This document shows positions 1 through 59,759 of a stretch of 64,000 nucleotides of DNA, in pieces. Below the pieces are notes generated by a model that was given only the letters and a program-made list of their open reading frames with translations, was not told the DNA's origin and searched no databases. How positions within the stretch are numbered: the first letter of the stretch is position 1; every line of letters starts with the position of its first letter. The position numbers were made by a program, and so were the translations under genes. Origin of the DNA: Gemmatimonadota bacterium (GTDB lineage: Bacteria; Gemmatimonadota; Gemmatimonadetes; Gemmatimonadales; Gemmatimonadaceae); the NCBI GenBank assembly GCA_021299375.1, contig JAJTGR010000006.1:1-64000 (forward strand), given 5' to 3'.

Positions 1-145
1 AAACGCGGCAGCACGAAACGCGGCAGCACGAAACGCGGCAGCACGAAACGCGGCAGCACGAAACGCGGCAGCACGAAACGCGGCAGCACGAAACGCGGCA
101 GCACGAAACACGGCAGCACGAAACGCGGCAGCACGAAACGCGGCA
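1..145. repeat. 15-bp tandem repeat array, left arm of a giant inverted repeat
   Basis: Nine complete copies and one partial copy of the 15-mer aaacgcggcagcacg run from the window edge to base 145. One copy has an A for G change (105-119). The array probably continues beyond the window. Its reverse complement is nearly the same as the right array at 217-288, so the two can pair. It lies just downstream of the RND pump stop codon and has no credible coding content. Confidence 0.95.
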
Positions 146-220
146 CCGACAACAGCGTCATGGGTGAGCGTGACTGCGGGTACCGCCGTTTCGATTACCC
201 ATGACGCCGTTCTCGGTGCC
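142..220. terminator. Core palindrome between the two 15-bp arrays
   Basis: A 24-base left arm (142-165) pairs with the right arm (197-220) with two mismatches. The arms begin and end with ggcaccgac and its near complement. The arrays on either side extend the stem. Placed directly after the pump gene, it probably acts as a transcription terminator or 3' end stabiliser for that operon. No T-tract is visible, so a termination role is inferred. A related palindrome occurs at 58132-58243. Confidence 0.6.
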
Positions 221-288
221 GCCGTTCGTGCTACCGCCGTTCGTGCTACCGCCGTTCGTGCTGCCGCCGTTCGTGCTGCCGCCGTTCG
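217..288. repeat. 15-bp tandem repeat array, right arm
   Basis: Four full copies plus one partial copy of tgctgccgccgttcg-type 15-mers, two with A for G changes. The array ends three bases before the RND gene stop codon complement at 292. Read on the minus strand it is the first sequence transcribed after the pump gene, and it can fold back on the array at 1-145. Confidence 0.9.
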
Positions 289-291
289 CCG

Positions 292-3200
292 TCAGTCCCC
301 ACCCACCGGCACCGGCGCCATCCCCCCGCCCGTCGCCATCTCCCGCTTCGGCGCGCGCCGCCGCTTCACCATCTGGTCGAGCAGCGTGTACACCACCGGC
401 GTCACGTACAGCGTGATCAGCTGCGAAAACGCCAGGCCGCCCACGACGGCGAGGCCGAGTGGTTGACGCGACTCGGCGCCGGCGCCGTAGCCCACCGCGA
501 TCGGCAGCGTCCCCATGAGCGCCGCCATGGTCGTCATCATGATCGGGCGGAAGCGCACACGCGCCGCCTCCATGATCGCGTCGTACGGCGACAGGCCGTC
601 CTTGCGCTCGGCCTCGGTGGCGAAGTCGATCATCATGATTGCATTCTTCTTGACCAGCCCGATGAGCATGATCACGCCGACATACGCGTACACGCTCAGG
701 TCCTTGCCGAAGATCATGAGCGTGGCCAGTGCACCGACCGCCGCGAAAGGCAGACCCGAGAGGATCGTGAGCGGGTGGATGTAGCTCTCGTACAGGATGC
801 CGAGCACCACGTAGATCACGAAGATCGCCACCACGAGCAGTGCCAGCAGGCCGCTCTGCGCCTGCGCGAAGGCCTGCGTGTCACCCGACAGCACACTCGT
901 CACGCCGGCGGGCAACACCGCGGCCGCCTCGCGCTGCACCGCGTCGACGGCCGTGCCGAGTGCCACGTTCGGTCGCGTGTTGAACGAGATGGAGACGGCC
1001 GGTTGTTGCCCGTTGTGCTGCACTGACTGGGGCCCGACCCCCTTGGTGAAGGTCGCCACCGCGCCGAGCGGGATCTGGTTGCCCGTGTTGGAGCGGATGA
1101 AGAGCTGGCTGAGGGCGGCGGGATCGCGCTGGAACTCCTCCTTCAGCTCGATGATGACCTGATACTGGTTGGTCTGGGTGTAGATCGTCGAGACCTGCCG
1201 CGATCCGTACGCGTTGTACAGCGCGTTCTCGATCTGGCTGGCGGTCACGCCGAGCGACGAGGCACGCTCGCGGTCGATCGTGACACCCACCTGCGGGTTC
1301 CCCACCTGCAGGTCACTCGAGATGTTCTCGAGTTCCGGCAGTTCGCGCATCCGCTGCTCGAGGGCGCGCGCCGACGTGTAGAGTTCGGCGATGTCGGCGC
1401 CCTGCAGCGACACCTGGTAGGCGCTGTTGCCGCGGCGCCCCCCGATGTTGATCGGCGGCGGGTTGCGGAAGAACACCTGCACGCCCGGCACCTGCGACGT
1501 AGCGCGGGTGAGCTCACGCATCACCTGGTCGACGTGCGGGCGCTGGGCGCGATCCTTGAGCGTGAGCTGCAGGCGGGCACTGTTGTTGCCGCCGAACGGC
1601 CCGCCACCGATGGACACCATCGTGTACTCGATGTACGGACTGGCCTGCAGGATTGCGCCGACCTCGCGCGCCTTGGCCGCCAGCGCGTCGTAGCCGATGC
1701 CTTCCGGCCCTTCCACCGAACCCTGAAGGCGGCCCGTGTCCTCCGACGGGATGAACCCCTTCGGAATGATGACGAACAAGCCGACCGTCGCCACGAGCGT
1801 CAAGGCACTGAACAGCATCGTCAGGCCGCGATGCTGCATGACCCACGCCAGCGACGACGTGTAGCCGCGCTCCGACGCCTGGTAGAGCCGCTCCACCGAG
1901 CGCCACTTCCCCTCGGCGGTCGCGTGCCCTTCCCCGCCCTTGAGGAACCTGGCCGACAGCATGGGCGTGAGCGTGAGCGAGACGAAGCCGGACACGAGAA
2001 TGGCCACGCCGATGGTGACGGCGAACTCGCGGAAGAGGCGGCCGATCAGCCCCGGCATGAACAGCAGGGGAATGAACACCGCCACCAGCGAGAGCGTCAT
2101 CGAGAGGATCGTGAAGCTGATCTCGCGTGAGCCATCCAGCGCCGCCCGCACCGGCGACTTCCCCATTTCCATGTGCCGCACGATGTTCTCGAGCATCACG
2201 ATGGCGTCGTCGACCACGAAGCCCACGGCGAGCGTGAGCGCCATGAGGGTGAGGTTGTTGAGGCTGTAGCCCAACGCCCACATCACGATGCACGTGCCGA
2301 TGATCGAGAACGGCAGCGCGAGCGATGGGATGATCGTGGCCCGCACGTTGCGCAGGAACAGGAAGATCACCAGCACGACCAGCGCCACGGTGAGCGCAAG
2401 CGTGAACTGCACGTCCCACACCGAGTGCTCGATGCTCTCGGCGCGGTTGAAGATGGTCATGACCTGCACACTCTGCGGGAGCTGCGGAATGAGCTTCTCC
2501 ATCTCCGCCTGCACCGCCTTGGCGGTGGCCACCGTGTTCACGCCGGGCTGGCGGATGATGGCCAGCGAGATGTTCTGGCGGCCGTTGACCTCACTGAAGC
2601 CGCGCAGCTGCTGCAACCCGTCGAAGACGTTGCCGAGATCGCCGAGGCGCACTGGTGTGCCGTTGCGGTAGGCGACCACCAGCTGCCGGAACTCGGCGGC
2701 GTTCCGGAGCTGGCCCGTGGCCTGCAGCGTGAACGCCTGGTTGGGCCCCATGAGGACGCCAGCCGGCGAGTTGGAGTTGCCCTGGTTGATGGCTTGCTGC
2801 ACCTCGTCGATGCCGATACCGCGCTGCGCGAGCGCGCTGGGGTCGAGCTGGACACGTACCGCATACTTGGCCGAGCCATACACCTGCACCTGCGCCACAC
2901 CCGACACGGTGCTGAGGCGCTGGCCGATGAAGGTCTCGGCGTACTCGTTGAGCTCCGGCCGCGAGAGCACGTCGGAGTTGAGCGAGTACATCATGATCGG
3001 CGAGTCGGCCGCATTGGCCTTGTTGTACGAGGGCGGATTGATGCCCTGCGGCAGTTGGCGCAGCGTCTTGGAGATCGCCGACTGCACGTCGGCAGCCGCC
3101 TTGTCGATGTCCCGTTCGAGATTGAACTGAATCGTGACGTTCGTGCTGCCCTGCGAGCTCGAGGAGGTGATGTTGTCGATGCCCGAGATGGTCGCGAACT

Positions 3201-3459
3201 GCTGCTCGAGCGGCGTGGCGACCGACGTGGCCATGACCTCCGGGCTCGCGCCGGGCAGGTTCGCCGAGACCGTGATGGTGGGATAGTCGATCGTCGGCAG
3301 GTCGCTCACCGGCAGGCGCTGGTAGGCCACGATGCCGAAGATCAGGAGCGCCGTCATCACCAGCGTCGTCATGACCGGCCGTGTGATCCAGAGCTCGCTG
3401 AGGTTCAAGCCGCCGACGACCTCGTCGGGCGCGCCCTGCGGAGCCTGTCGCCCACTCAT
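292..3459 (-). CDS. RND multidrug efflux pump, AcrB/MdtC-like inner-membrane transporter
   Basis: Predicted proton-driven exporter of the hydrophobe/amphiphile efflux RND family, 1055 residues, the usual length. The first transmembrane helix follows the SELWITRPVMTTL segment. The DD pair in the VGFVVDDAIVMLENI helix (about residue 413) and the Lys in LVKKNAIMMIDFA match the proton-relay residues of AcrB. The sequence resembles MdtB/MdtC more than AcrB. The start overlaps the stop of the adaptor gene by four bases, so the pair is an operon. No outer-membrane TolC-like factor lies in the window. The substrate cannot be told from sequence. Confidence 0.95.
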   Translation of the reverse strand: MSGRQAPQGAPDEVVGGLNLSELWITRPVMTTLVMTALLIFGIVAYQRLPVSDLPTIDYPTITVSANLPGASPEVMATSVATPLEQQFATISGIDNITSSSSQGSTNVTIQFNLERDIDKAAADVQSAISKTLRQLPQGINPPSYNKANAADSPIMMYSLNSDVLSRPELNEYAETFIGQRLSTVSGVAQVQVYGSAKYAVRVQLDPSALAQRGIGIDEVQQAINQGNSNSPAGVLMGPNQAFTLQATGQLRNAAEFRQLVVAYRNGTPVRLGDLGNVFDGLQQLRGFSEVNGRQNISLAIIRQPGVNTVATAKAVQAEMEKLIPQLPQSVQVMTIFNRAESIEHSVWDVQFTLALTVALVVLVIFLFLRNVRATIIPSLALPFSIIGTCIVMWALGYSLNNLTLMALTLAVGFVVDDAIVMLENIVRHMEMGKSPVRAALDGSREISFTILSMTLSLVAVFIPLLFMPGLIGRLFREFAVTIGVAILVSGFVSLTLTPMLSARFLKGGEGHATAEGKWRSVERLYQASERGYTSSLAWVMQHRGLTMLFSALTLVATVGLFVIIPKGFIPSEDTGRLQGSVEGPEGIGYDALAAKAREVGAILQASPYIEYTMVSIGGGPFGGNNSARLQLTLKDRAQRPHVDQVMRELTRATSQVPGVQVFFRNPPPINIGGRRGNSAYQVSLQGADIAELYTSARALEQRMRELPELENISSDLQVGNPQVGVTIDRERASSLGVTASQIENALYNAYGSRQVSTIYTQTNQYQVIIELKEEFQRDPAALSQLFIRSNTGNQIPLGAVATFTKGVGPQSVQHNGQQPAVSISFNTRPNVALGTAVDAVQREAAAVLPAGVTSVLSGDTQAFAQAQSGLLALLVVAIFVIYVVLGILYESYIHPLTILSGLPFAAVGALATLMIFGKDLSVYAYVGVIMLIGLVKKNAIMMIDFATEAERKDGLSPYDAIMEAARVRFRPIMMTTMAALMGTLPIAVGYGAGAESRQPLGLAVVGGLAFSQLITLYVTPVVYTLLDQMVKRRRAPKREMATGGGMAPVPVGGD

Positions 3460-4703
3460 CGGCCCTGCCCTCCCTGACTTCCGGATGTGGTGCCGCCCGT
3501 CTCACCACCGGGACGTCCACCGCCGTTGCGACCACCGCCGTTGCGACCGCCGCGGCCTCCGCCGCTCGGCGCCGCGCCGCGGAGCTGGACCTTGGCACCG
3601 TCGCGCAGTCGGGTCTGGCCCTCGGTCACGACGCGTTCGCCGCCCACGAGCCCACTGTCGATCTTCACCATCGTTCCCGACGGGCGCCCCACCTTGACCG
3701 GGTTGCGCTTCACCTTGTCGCCATCGAGCACATACACAAACGTCGAAGTGCCCGACGTGACCACCGCTTCCGACGGAATCGTCACCGCGTCCTGGTCCAC
3801 GCTGAGCTGCAGCGCGACGGTCACGAACTGCCCGGGCCAGAGCGCCCGGTCCTGATTCGGCACCTCCGCCTTGAGCAGCACGGAGCCGGTGGCGCGATCG
3901 ACCTGGTTGTCCACGAAGATCAGCGTACCGGTGACCGCGGCCGAGCTGTCGGTGCCCGACGGCGTGACCCGCACGGCCAACGCCTTGTCGATACCGGCGC
4001 GCTTGCGCAGCTCTTCGAAGTCGCGCTCCGGTACCGGAAAGCGCACGAGCACGGGCCGCAGTTCGTTGATCGTCACCAGCTGGTCGGTGGACGCCCGCAC
4101 GAGCGACCCCGCCTTGTACAGCAGCTGACCGGTCCGCCCGGTAATGGGTGCCTTGACGGTGGTGTTCTCGAGATCGAAGCGCGCGCGTTCGAGTGACGCC
4201 TGGCCGGCAGCGACGGTTGCCGTCAGCGCCGACACCTCGGCGAAGGTCTGGTCGAGCTGCTGCTTGGTGACATAGCCGTCCTTGGCGAGCGCGGCGAAGC
4301 GCACCGAGTCGGCGCGGGCGCGGGTCAGCGTGGCGTCGTCGCGCGCCAGCGTGGCCTGCACCCGTTCGAGCTCGGCTCGGAACGGACGCGGATCGATCTG
4401 GAAGAGGACCTGCCCCTCACGCACCTCTTCACCCTCCGCGATGGCGATGCGGGTGAGCTGGCCGGACACCAGCGACTGCACGGCAACAGTGCGGTTGGGT
4501 TCGACCTGCCCGTTCGCCACCACGACGTACGGGAGGGGGCCCTTGGCCGCCGCCAGCACGGTCACCGTAGGGGTGGGCCGCTGCGGCGGGGGCGCCTTCT
4601 TGCAGGCCCCCACGACGGCGAGCAGCAAGCCGGCCGCGACGAGAGCAACGGGCGATATCGAGAGCCGGCGCGAGTGACGCGCTGGCGAGACAATGTCTGG
4701 CAT
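3456..4703 (-). CDS. RND efflux periplasmic adaptor (membrane fusion protein)
   Basis: HlyD/AcrA-family adaptor of 415 residues that should link the pump to an outer-membrane channel. The N-terminus carries a hydrophobic stretch ending in a VVGAC lipobox, so it is probably a lipoprotein. It has the usual order: barrel-sandwich half motif (VVANGQVEPNRTVAVQS), coiled coil, second half motif (NTTVKAPITGRTGQLLY), beta-barrel. The last 35 residues are an unusual Gly/Arg/Asn/Ser-rich low-complexity tail. No clear ribosome binding site precedes the chosen ATG, so the start is approximate. Confidence 0.93.
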   Translation of the reverse strand: MPDIVSPARHSRRLSISPVALVAAGLLLAVVGACKKAPPPQRPTPTVTVLAAAKGPLPYVVVANGQVEPNRTVAVQSLVSGQLTRIAIAEGEEVREGQVLFQIDPRPFRAELERVQATLARDDATLTRARADSVRFAALAKDGYVTKQQLDQTFAEVSALTATVAAGQASLERARFDLENTTVKAPITGRTGQLLYKAGSLVRASTDQLVTINELRPVLVRFPVPERDFEELRKRAGIDKALAVRVTPSGTDSSAAVTGTLIFVDNQVDRATGSVLLKAEVPNQDRALWPGQFVTVALQLSVDQDAVTIPSEAVVTSGTSTFVYVLDGDKVKRNPVKVGRPSGTMVKIDSGLVGGERVVTEGQTRLRDGAKVQLRGAAPSGGGRGGRNGGGRNGGGRPGGETGGTTSGSQGGQGR

Positions 4704-38912: not shown

Positions 38913-39010
38913 CACAGGGTCGGATGCCGCCGCATCGCTCGGCGGGACAGGCACACGCGCCTTGACTTTTTCAGGGGGGGGACGGCGGAACGGCGCAAGC
39001 CATGCGGCGC

Positions 39011-39195
39011 CCTCTGCCTCGCGCCCTTTGCCTCGCGCCCTCTGCCTCGCGCCCGTTGGCTCGCGCCCGTTGGCTCGCGCCCTTTGGCTCGCGCCCTCTG
39101 CCTCGCGCCCTTTGCCTCGCGCCCTTTGGCTCGCGCCCTCTGCCTCGCGCCCTTTGCCTCGCGCCCTTTGCCTCGCGCCCCCCAGCTCGCGCCCG
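39011..39195. repeat. 14-bp tandem repeat array, about 13 copies
   Basis: Copies of the 14-mer cctcgcgccctttg with alternating variants (cctctg, cgttgg, ctttgg). The copies are mixed in order, which suggests slipped-strand expansion. Fourteen bases is not a multiple of three, so every frame shows a 14-residue period and no real protein. It is framed by direct repeats on both sides. Confidence 0.92.
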
Positions 39196-39291
39196 CAGGC
39201 ACACGCGCCCTGACGTACTCCGGAAGTGGCGAGCCTTGCGGCGCCCTCTGCCTCGCGGCGTCCCGCCGTCACAACCGGCGTAGGCGCCGCG

Positions 39292-56426: not shown

Positions 56427-58127
56427 GTGTCCCGGCGCATCATTGGTTGCGAGGCGATGCCGCCCGTGGACCGCCCTCCGCCATACGCACCGCCGTCCGA
56501 CTTCCGGGGGGTCTTTCGGACCGACCGGCTGGCCCGTACGCTGTATGCCGAGGGGGCCGGCATCGCGCGGTGCGTACCCGCTGCGGTGGCGGTGCCCGCC
56601 GACGCCGATGACGTGCCCGCGCTGGCCCGGTGGGCCAAGCGCACGGGGGCGCCGCTCATGCCGCGCGGCTCGGGGAGCGGGATGGCGGCCGGCGCCGTAG
56701 GCCCAGGCATCGTGGTCGACCTCAGCCGGCTTCGGCACATCGCCCCCATCGACACCGACGGTCGGCGGGTGCGCGCGGGCGCGGGCGCGCTGCGCGGTGA
56801 GATCGATGCAGCGGCACGGGCCGTGGGGTTGCGGTTTCCCGTTGACCCGTCGAGCGGGGCGTTCTGCACCATCGGTGGCATGGTGGGTGCCAACGCCGCG
56901 GGCGCCCGCACGCTCCGCTTCGGTGCCACGCGCCCGTGGGTGCTCGGGCTGCGGTGCGTGTTCGATGACGGCCACGAGGCGTGGGTGCACCGGGAGCGGC
57001 CGCTGCCGCGCGACGTGCCGGCCGTGACGCGACTGCTGCGCGCGACGGACGAGGTCCGCCAGGGCGTCGACCCATCTCGGCTGGTGCATACCGGAGTGCG
57101 GAAGGAGTCGTCAGGATACGGGGTGGCCGCGATGCTGGCGCCGGGCGGGCACCTCGTGGACCTGCTGGTCGGGAGCGAGGGGACCCTGGCGCTGTTCACC
57201 GAGGTGGAGTTGGCGCTCATCCCGGTCGCCGAGGCCACGGCAACGGTGCTGGCCACATTCCGCACACTGGAGGCCGCGACCGTGTGCGCCAGCGCGACGC
57301 GCGAGGCGGGGGCGACGGCGTGCGAGCTGCTGGATCGGACGTTCCTGGATGTCGCCGCCACCGGGGGGCCGACCGGCATTCCGGCAGACGCAGAGGCGGT
57401 GCTGTTGATCGAGGTGGAGGGGGCATCGGGCGAAGACGTCGGCGGATTGCTGGACGCGGTGATCGATCGTTGCCGCTCGCATGGCGCGCTCGCGCTGCAT
57501 CAGGCGTCGGAACCCGACGCCGAACATCGCCTGTGGGCGTTGCGACACGCGGCCAGCCCGATTCTCGCTCGGCTTGCGCCGCGACTGCGGTCGATGCAGT
57601 TCATCGAGGATGGCTGTGTGCCGCCCGAGCAGTTCCCGGCGTACGTCCGTGGCGTCCGGGCGGCGCTTTCCCGCTTCGGCATGCCGGGGGTGATCTTCGG
57701 CCACGCAGGTGATGCCCACGCCCACGTGAACCCGCTGGTGGATACCAGTGCCGCGGGCTGGCGCGACCGGGTGCACGGCGTACTCGCCGAGGTGAGCGAC
57801 CTCACGGCGTCGCTGGGCGGCACGCTCGCCGGCGAACATGGCGACGGCCGCCTGCGGGCACCGTTGCTGCACCGGGTGTGGGGGCTCGAGGCGCGCAGTG
57901 TATTCGCCCACGTGAAGGAAGCCGCCGATCCGTCCGGCGTGCTCAACCCGGGCTGCAAGATCGCACGCCCCCACGACGAGCCGTTCACGACGCTGCGGCA
58001 CGATCCGGAGGCGCCACCGTTACCGGCGGAGGCGGAGCGAGTGCTGCGGGACATCGAGCAACGGCGGGACTGGGGGCGGTTCCGACTCGCCGGCGTCGGC
58101 GTGGACGGCGAACAACGGCAGCGATAA
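56427..58127 (+). CDS. FAD-linked oxidase (GlcD/D-lactate dehydrogenase family)
   Basis: 566 residues from GTG, or 556 from the ATG at 56457. PP-loop FAD-binding domain: PLMPRGSGSGMAAGAVGPGIVVDLSRL, DPSSGAFCTIGGMVGANAAGARTLRFG, LLVGSEGTLALFTEV. C-terminal domain with metal-site FGHAGDAHAHVNP and GEHGDGRLRAP. Oxidises a D-2-hydroxy acid such as lactate or glycolate. There is no C-terminal iron-sulfur domain and no GlcE/GlcF gene nearby. Confidence 0.88.
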   Translation: MSRRIIGCEAMPPVDRPPPYAPPSDFRGVFRTDRLARTLYAEGAGIARCVPAAVAVPADADDVPALARWAKRTGAPLMPRGSGSGMAAGAVGPGIVVDLSRLRHIAPIDTDGRRVRAGAGALRGEIDAAARAVGLRFPVDPSSGAFCTIGGMVGANAAGARTLRFGATRPWVLGLRCVFDDGHEAWVHRERPLPRDVPAVTRLLRATDEVRQGVDPSRLVHTGVRKESSGYGVAAMLAPGGHLVDLLVGSEGTLALFTEVELALIPVAEATATVLATFRTLEAATVCASATREAGATACELLDRTFLDVAATGGPTGIPADAEAVLLIEVEGASGEDVGGLLDAVIDRCRSHGALALHQASEPDAEHRLWALRHAASPILARLAPRLRSMQFIEDGCVPPEQFPAYVRGVRAALSRFGMPGVIFGHAGDAHAHVNPLVDTSAAGWRDRVHGVLAEVSDLTASLGGTLAGEHGDGRLRAPLLHRVWGLEARSVFAHVKEAADPSGVLNPGCKIARPHDEPFTTLRHDPEAPPLPAEAERVLRDIEQRRDWGRFRLAGVGVDGEQRQR

Positions 58128-58257
58128 CGACGGCACCGACAATGGCCGCATGTGTGACGGTGTCATCAGTCACGGCGGGGACCAGCTCAACCCCGCCCAT
58201 CGATCACGCCGTCAGGCATGACGTCGTCATCGGTGCCGCCGTTTGTGCGTCCGCCGT
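58128..58257. repeat. Long composite palindrome between convergent genes
   Basis: Three nested stems: outer 58132-58150 with 58217-58243 (imperfect), middle 58155-58166 with 58203-58214, inner ggcgggg (58174-58180) with ccccgcc (58191-58197). The outer arm shares ggcaccgac and gacgtcgtcatcggtgcc with the palindrome at 142-220 and the terminator at 32988. It probably ends transcription of both flanking genes. Confidence 0.75.
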
Positions 58258-58263
58258 CCGGCG

Positions 58264-58773
58264 TTACCGCCGCTCGCCGTCCCGGCTTTCGCCACCGGTC
58301 CGCAGCGTCCCCAACAGCGCGATGAGGGTCCGGAGCTCCGCCGCCCCGAGCACCGACATCGTGGCGTCATCGGCGGCGGCCATGGCCGGGTCGAGCGCGA
58401 CCAGCATGGCCTCACCCGCGGGCGTAATGGTGCACAGCACCTGCCGGCGGTCGGGCCGACTCCGATCGCGGCTCACGAGTCCCGCCTCTTCGAGTTTGTC
58501 GAGCAACCGGGTGACCGTCGAGCCCTCGTCGATCATGCGATCACGAATGGCCAGGGTGGGCAAGCCGGCCGGCCCAGCGCCCCGGAGAATCCGCAGCACG
58601 TTGTACTGCGCCAGGCTGATGCCATGGGGTTCCACTACCCGGGCGAACCGCCGTGATACCACCGAGGCCGTACGCAGGAGGGCGAGGGCGGCCTCCTGCG
58701 AGTCGGACCGGAAAGGGCGTGTCTGCTGGATTTCCTCCAGCAACGACCGGGCGCGGGGACGATTCGCTGGCAT
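58264..58773 (-). CDS. MarR-family transcriptional regulator
   Basis: 169 residues. Winged helix-turn-helix: EPHGISLAQYNVLRILRGAG, LPTLAIRDRMIDEGSTVTRLLDKLEEAGLV, then wing RDRSRPDRRQVLCTITPAG. Usually a dimeric repressor that responds to small aromatic or oxidising compounds. Its upstream region overlaps that of thyX and reads divergently, so it may control itself and thyX. A longer reading from 58845 would enter the thyX leader. Confidence 0.92.
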   Translation of the reverse strand: MPANRPRARSLLEEIQQTRPFRSDSQEAALALLRTASVVSRRFARVVEPHGISLAQYNVLRILRGAGPAGLPTLAIRDRMIDEGSTVTRLLDKLEEAGLVSRDRSRPDRRQVLCTITPAGEAMLVALDPAMAAADDATMSVLGAAELRTLIALLGTLRTGGESRDGERR

Positions 58774-58856
58774 CTGGACGGGTGCAGGGTGAAACTTCCG
58801 GAATAGTGCAGCCCCGCTGCGAAAGCTCAACCCGACCGTCCTCATTTGCCCCTCCG

Positions 58857-59648: not shown

Positions 59649-59759
59649 GTTGAACCCCTCAGCATCAGGGGGAAGGGTCTCAGGAAGGAGTGAGCAGTAC
59701 ACCGCAGTTCGCTGCCCCCTCCCCCCTGAGCCCCTTCCCCTGATGCCTGGGGGTTCAAC
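59649..59759. terminator. Long hairpin between thyX and the EF-G-like gene
   Basis: Left arm 59649-59684 pairs with right arm 59724-59759 over about 36 bases with a few mismatches (gttgaaccc... with ...gggttcaac). It lies between convergent genes and probably ends both transcripts. The motif atgcctgggggttc in the right arm also occurs at 45839, after lpdA. Confidence 0.75.

Follow-up and report, generated by a model that had tools for sequence, protein, structure and literature searches.

A species-specific, dispersed family of long palindromic repeats with tandem-array arms, mostly between convergent genes, in a Gemmatimonadaceae genome

INTRODUCTION

Classic REPs are 20–40 bp long, and the criteria for REPs and REPINs include an associated RAYT and a high copy number (>100). 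BOX elements of Streptococcus pneumoniae are modular repeats that form a stem-loop and hold a variable number of an internal subunit, the repeated boxB being placed between boxA and boxC. REPs prefer unidirectional and convergent spacers, in the two species studied there most convergent REPs are no more than 20 bp away from either 3′ end, and CGTC-REPs occur without a dedicated transposase (PMC3733652). Another report describes template switching as a process that creates and maintains hairpins (PMC8794818).

The window, the whole stretch of 64,000 nucleotides that was analysed, is the start of contig C64 in a draft genome of 4.48 Mb and 116 contigs (G000). Its first 288 bases are one member of a family of palindromic repeats that is species-specific and dispersed, with ~20 copies in the draft. 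Like REPs, BIMEs, and REPINs, the copies are intergenic palindromes scattered through the genome, mostly 3′ of genes and near both convergent stops, with local multiplication possible, and the family is extragenic, favouring convergent spacers (13/18 copies; 0 divergent) and the 3′ ends of genes. In contrast to REPs and REPINs, the elements are 150–650 bp rather than short palindromes of 20–40 bp, occupy ~20 loci rather than >100, and have stem arms made of tandem arrays of 14–16-bp units, and no RAYT was detected. We therefore do not class the family as REP: location and dispersion match, whereas size, copy number, and arm structure do not. An earlier note on this DNA had stated that REPs are not built like this, which is correct for the arms, but location and dispersion resemble published REP families (PMC3733652).

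Three more specific comparisons can be made. CGTC-tagged REPs are also palindromic and without a dedicated transposase, and CGTC is also seen at the inner stem here. Their tag, however, is at one end of a short hairpin, whereas CGTCATG is set within a long stem and has its mirror image on the other arm; the letters in common may be coincidental. BOX elements, likened by description, have a stem-loop and a variable subunit number, but the repeated boxB is internal and the repeated unit of the present family makes both arms. Bidirectional intrinsic terminators are symmetric hairpins flush with both stops, and short examples occur at the pump junction in relatives; the present hairpin is far longer, has tandem arms, and lacks a U-tract. 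The family can be placed more broadly among the interspersed palindromes of bacteria, as a new variant. No description of the 15-mer hairpin family was found in the literature searched, most subscription journals being outside its scope.

RESULTS

Structure and folding of the element

The element and the genes next to it in the window are as follows.

1–145, plus strand: left arm, 9.7 tandem copies of AAACGCGGCAGCACG (98% matches, TRF), cut by the contig end and very probably continued on contig C61
141–167, plus strand: left half of the core stem, CGGCACCGACAACAGCGTCATGGGTGA, with the family box CGTCATG at 156–162
168–194, no strand: hairpin apex region, including GACTGCGGGTACC
195–221, plus strand: right half of the core stem, TTACCCATGACGCCGTTCTCGGTGCCG
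205–288, plus strand: right arm, the near-complementary unit CGCCGTTCGTGCTGC/CGCCGTTCGTGCTAC in about five copies (TRF tandem array: 5.6 copies of the 15-mer CGCCGTTCGTGCTGC, 92% matches)
292–3459, minus strand: RND efflux permease gene, stop codon 3 nt from the element
3456–4703, minus strand: RND periplasmic adaptor gene, upstream of the permease in one operon

The inner stem is near-perfect, pairing GCGTCATGGGT at 155–165 with ACCCATGACGC at 197–207, and is extended by CGGCACCGA at 141–149 against TCGGTGCCG at 213–221. An inverted-repeat search of the window yielded ungapped arms of 106 nt (74–179 and 183–288) that are 81% complementary, and these arms and the TRF arrays bear out an initial reading of the locus as inverted 15-bp tandem arrays serving as stem arms. 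The predicted minus-strand RNA fold of positions 1–300 has an energy of −204.1 kcal/mol, compared to −144.4 ± 5.4 for shuffled sequences (z = −11.1; 0/200), in agreement with the very long potential RNA hairpin proposed to follow the pump stop directly. Folding as DNA gave z = −9.2. Among hairpins scored on a 474-kb sample of sequence stretches from G000, the element ranks first (score 108; runner-up 70). Window base 1 is a contig end within the array, so the left-arm copy number is a lower bound.

No intrinsic-terminator match and no U-tract after the hairpin were found in window 1–400, where a GC-rich stem is present; ordinary Rho-independent termination is therefore not supported. No Rfam family scored above its gathering score for the element, and the matches obtained (microRNA families, isrG, and Ms1) were far below it and reflect the long GC-rich stem. 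A protein-coding repeat was also rejected, since units are 14, 15, and 16 bp long and mostly lie at or past stop codons.

Junction with contig C61

A whole-genome search for the doubled unit located it at only one other place, the start of contig C61, where the array fills the first ~128 bases and reads opposite to the window array. The C61 gene beside it ends in histidine-kinase and response-regulator domains, with its stop ~14 nt from the array, and kup is next. A join of C61 to C64 across the array is very probable, because either that kinase or kup lies convergent to the pump gene in 26 genus relatives with an identifiable neighbour. Placement at the 3′ end of an efflux operon, as first proposed, agrees with the distance to the pump stop but is incomplete: the element sits between two convergent genes, pump and kinase, and would therefore be at the shared 3′ end of both. 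The outermost array units on C61, on the kinase side, are AACGGCGGTAGCACG, the same as in the right arm, and AAACGCGG/AAACGCGGCAGCACG is therefore probably a derived unit that expanded later. The kinase reading frame beside the array (C61 142–1882) looks split over several frames, through sequence errors or a broken gene.

A dispersed family with locus-specific arms

Using BLAST, window 100–250 matched ~20 loci in G000, and the best match in any other genome of the genus reached only E = 1.6e-4. The element is thus not unique to the efflux operon. Copies follow a common plan: n repeats of a unit such as AACGGCGGCACCNNN lead into AACGGCGTCATGNNNACGRCGTGATC, and the inverse follows beyond an apex that varies; CGTCATGNNNACGRCGTGATC and its inverse form the conserved inner stem on either side of the apex. 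Stem arms are commonly tandem arrays of a 14–16-bp unit that starts AACGGCG and differs by locus. At three loci (C80, C20, and C42), one half is present in two to five copies, and pairing is poor in some copies (C110, C78, and C31). Unequal copy numbers and arm-unit variants are found at many loci and support length differences on both arms, which may reflect slippage. The core motif CGTCATGNNNACGNCGTGATC has 25 matches in G000 with ≤2 mismatches, versus 0 for a reversed control; 84,980 genomes of other species contain 34 single matches in unrelated phyla, which we estimate to be about chance level, and viral contigs contain four. Eight contig ends (C64, C61, C41, C88, C77, C51, C40, and C109) fall in arrays, and the arrays therefore fragment the assembly. 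A small ORF for a four-helix-bundle-like protein lies between two family copies at the end of contig C41 (L136, 2201–2599). The window contains one further copy.

58103–58262, no strand: family copy between convergent genes at 56427–58127 (plus) and 58264–58845 (minus)

Other arrays and hairpins occur nearby. Window positions 38980–39265 hold a 14-bp array in a spacer (12.4 copies of GCGCCCTTTGCCTC); part of its edge recurs in inverted orientation near 39235, and the array is apparently a second array type related to GGCGCGAG 14-mers on C61 and C62. Facing 14-bp arrays (AACGGCGCGAGCTA, 11.8 copies, and CGCCCCATGGCTCA, 4.2 copies) surround a hairpin at C61 13089–13345, between two minus-strand genes that resemble an efflux-type operon. 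This last locus had been a candidate convergent case; it was rejected and left out of the count, both flanking genes being on the minus strand. A hairpin of another kind lies close to the second family copy in the window.

59649–59759, no strand: different long intergenic hairpin without tandem arms, at a convergent junction, with CAGGGGGAAGG-type arms

Arms resembling this type also occur in G002 and G020, and the CAGGGGGAAGG-type hairpin, unlike the 15-mer family, may be common to several species. Apices with ACTGCGG/CCGCAGT and unrelated arms were seen at window 171–180 and 59690–59700, at L037, and at C61 (L015) 13260. As a shared apex motif, it was present in 4/42 apices versus 0.3 expected, which is not convincing once all 7-mers are allowed for.

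Concerted change of the paired arms

A permutation test was anchored on CGTCATG, with right arms dealt to other copies. Left arms and the reverse-complemented right arms of their own copy have 62% identity over 60 positions, compared to 50% with permuted arms (z = 5.2), and over the 15 positions of the inner stem the values are 61% and 38% (P = 5e-5). Co-variation persists when the window copy and C51, a duplicate of C77, are removed. A simpler own-arm rank test placed only 4/17 copies at rank 1, duplicated halves blurring the ranking. In the permutation test, the arms of a copy are more alike than arms taken from different copies.

Spacers at the orthologous pump junction in G006 and G008 are ~370–430 nt and fold almost end to end. 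Between these two genomes, 10 pairs changed on both sides with pairing kept and five changed on both sides with pairing broken. One block is altered on both arms, reading AAACCAGC/GCTGGTTT in one genome and AGATGAGC/GCTCATCT in the other. Such a concerted block change would be the expected product of template switching across a hairpin (PMC8794818); selection for pairing could produce the same two-arm pattern.

Preference for convergent spacers

With gene calls and orientations from a home-made coding-score script that misassigned at least one gene, and with the window copy classed as convergent because of its probable junction with C61, 13 of 18 classifiable family copies are in convergent spacers, five are in spacers between tandem genes, and none are in divergent spacers. 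Among all sampled G000 spacers at least 80 bp long, only 26 of 144 are convergent (Fisher P = 5.5e-6). Copies often extend nearly from stop to stop between convergent genes.

A 400-kb sample of the closed genome G001 (4,636,964 bp) contains a different long-hairpin family, and its strong hairpins are convergent in 8/11 cases versus 24/132 spacers (P = 3e-4). Smaller samples of G002, G006, and G020 contain long hairpins mostly in tandem or divergent spacers; the convergent preference of long hairpins is clear for G000 and G001 only. A repeat family of G001 (L061–L080) has ACAGCGGGGGGAACACAGA ends, covarying inner arms, and ~7 copies in 400 kb, and some ACAGCGGGGGGAACACAGA-ended copies enclose an ordinary terminator-like hairpin at the apex. 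Tandem arms were considered as a genus-wide rule and rejected: periodic arms were found in 13/33 hairpins, mostly in G000, with some in G020, G002, and G006.

At the orthologous pump junction, long hairpins are present in G006, G008, G009, G012, and G001 and absent in the nearest relatives, G014 and G020. Many relatives have short hairpins only or almost no spacer there, so a long hairpin is not required at this junction. With regard to a MITE or insertion element, relatives are without an element of the window type at the pump junction, and the spacers are so different that a target-site duplication would not be expected to show.

DISCUSSION

The genome contains a palindromic family with tandem, covarying arms and a preference for convergent spacers. 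The explanation that we consider best, with a probability of about 0.5 for the whole, is a REP/BIME-like family in which slippage has grown the arms, one arm is copied to the other, and converging mRNAs share a 3′ hairpin. Arm length would change by replication slippage, and template switching in the folded strand would copy changes from one arm into the other, so that the palindrome is kept. Both converging mRNAs would end in, or run through, one long hairpin. It would function as a bidirectional 3′ hairpin, which may stop or slow RNA polymerase and/or 3′ exonucleases and limit antisense read-through. The route by which the family spread would not have involved a RAYT of its own. Loss of SbcCD was rejected as the reason that palindromes are tolerated: G000 has an SbcC-like and an SbcD-like gene side by side, and such genes were found in nearly all relatives, mostly below curated cut-offs.

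A neutral reading is nearly as likely as the 3′-hairpin role. Slippage and template switching could lengthen functionless or selfish palindromes, most survivors being in convergent spacers because promoters or operons would be disrupted by insertions at other sites. As a full account of the family this is quite possible, and it is consistent with the lineage-specific sequence and copy-number differences, the half-element duplications at C80, C20, and C42, the absence from the orthologous junction in G014 and G020, and the zero copies in divergent spacers. It explains less well why convergent spacers, a minority, contain most copies and why core boxes are conserved between copies despite variable arms.

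Those boxes (TCATG, TGATC, and GGYACC) may instead form a binding-site array, whose DNA is recognized by a protein of the nucleoid, a topoisomerase, or a segregation factor; by analogy with gyrase at BIMEs, the putative factor would act on positive supercoils between converging genes. The fixed spacing of conserved boxes in the inner stem, the tandem multiplication of half-sites, and the convergent location all suit such an array. Variable letters between the boxes also match across arms, however, which plain recognition of duplex DNA does not need, and no candidate protein was identified. We regard this explanation as improbable.

Movement by a RAYT (Y1 transposase), as for a REP/REPIN-type mobile element, is very unlikely. 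Dispersed palindromes that prefer gene 3′ ends would be in line with published REPs (PMC3733652), but the elements have the wrong size (150–650 bp, not 20–40 bp) and only ~20 copies, and PF01797 was not detected in the 96%-complete draft of G000 or in closed G001, which has long hairpins of its own, while control genomes were positive. Misassembly of a repeat at a contig end has the least credibility, despite the contig end that cuts the array and the eight ends within such arrays, since most copies lie inside contigs with their own units, synteny in 26 relatives backs the C61–C64 adjacency, and the pump junction of closed G001 also holds a long hairpin; an isolated artefact is unlikely, and the uncertainty is confined to the exact copy number of the window array.

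A broader proposal is tentative and, taken in full, rather doubtful: that these elements represent a bacterial repeat class in which the palindrome is the evolving unit, tandem arms are homogenized by template switching, convergent spread occurs without a transposase, and species have their own long-hairpin versions.

The arrays account for several assembly breaks in this genome. Some 20 hairpins whose arm units differ, all within one genome, form a natural series for palindrome-arm growth and concerted evolution, and orthologous junctions in some 26 related species extend the series for following arm evolution directly. If the proposed 3′-hairpin role is true, the family would illustrate a way in which converging transcription units may be kept apart in a GC-rich genus that does so without U-tract terminators.
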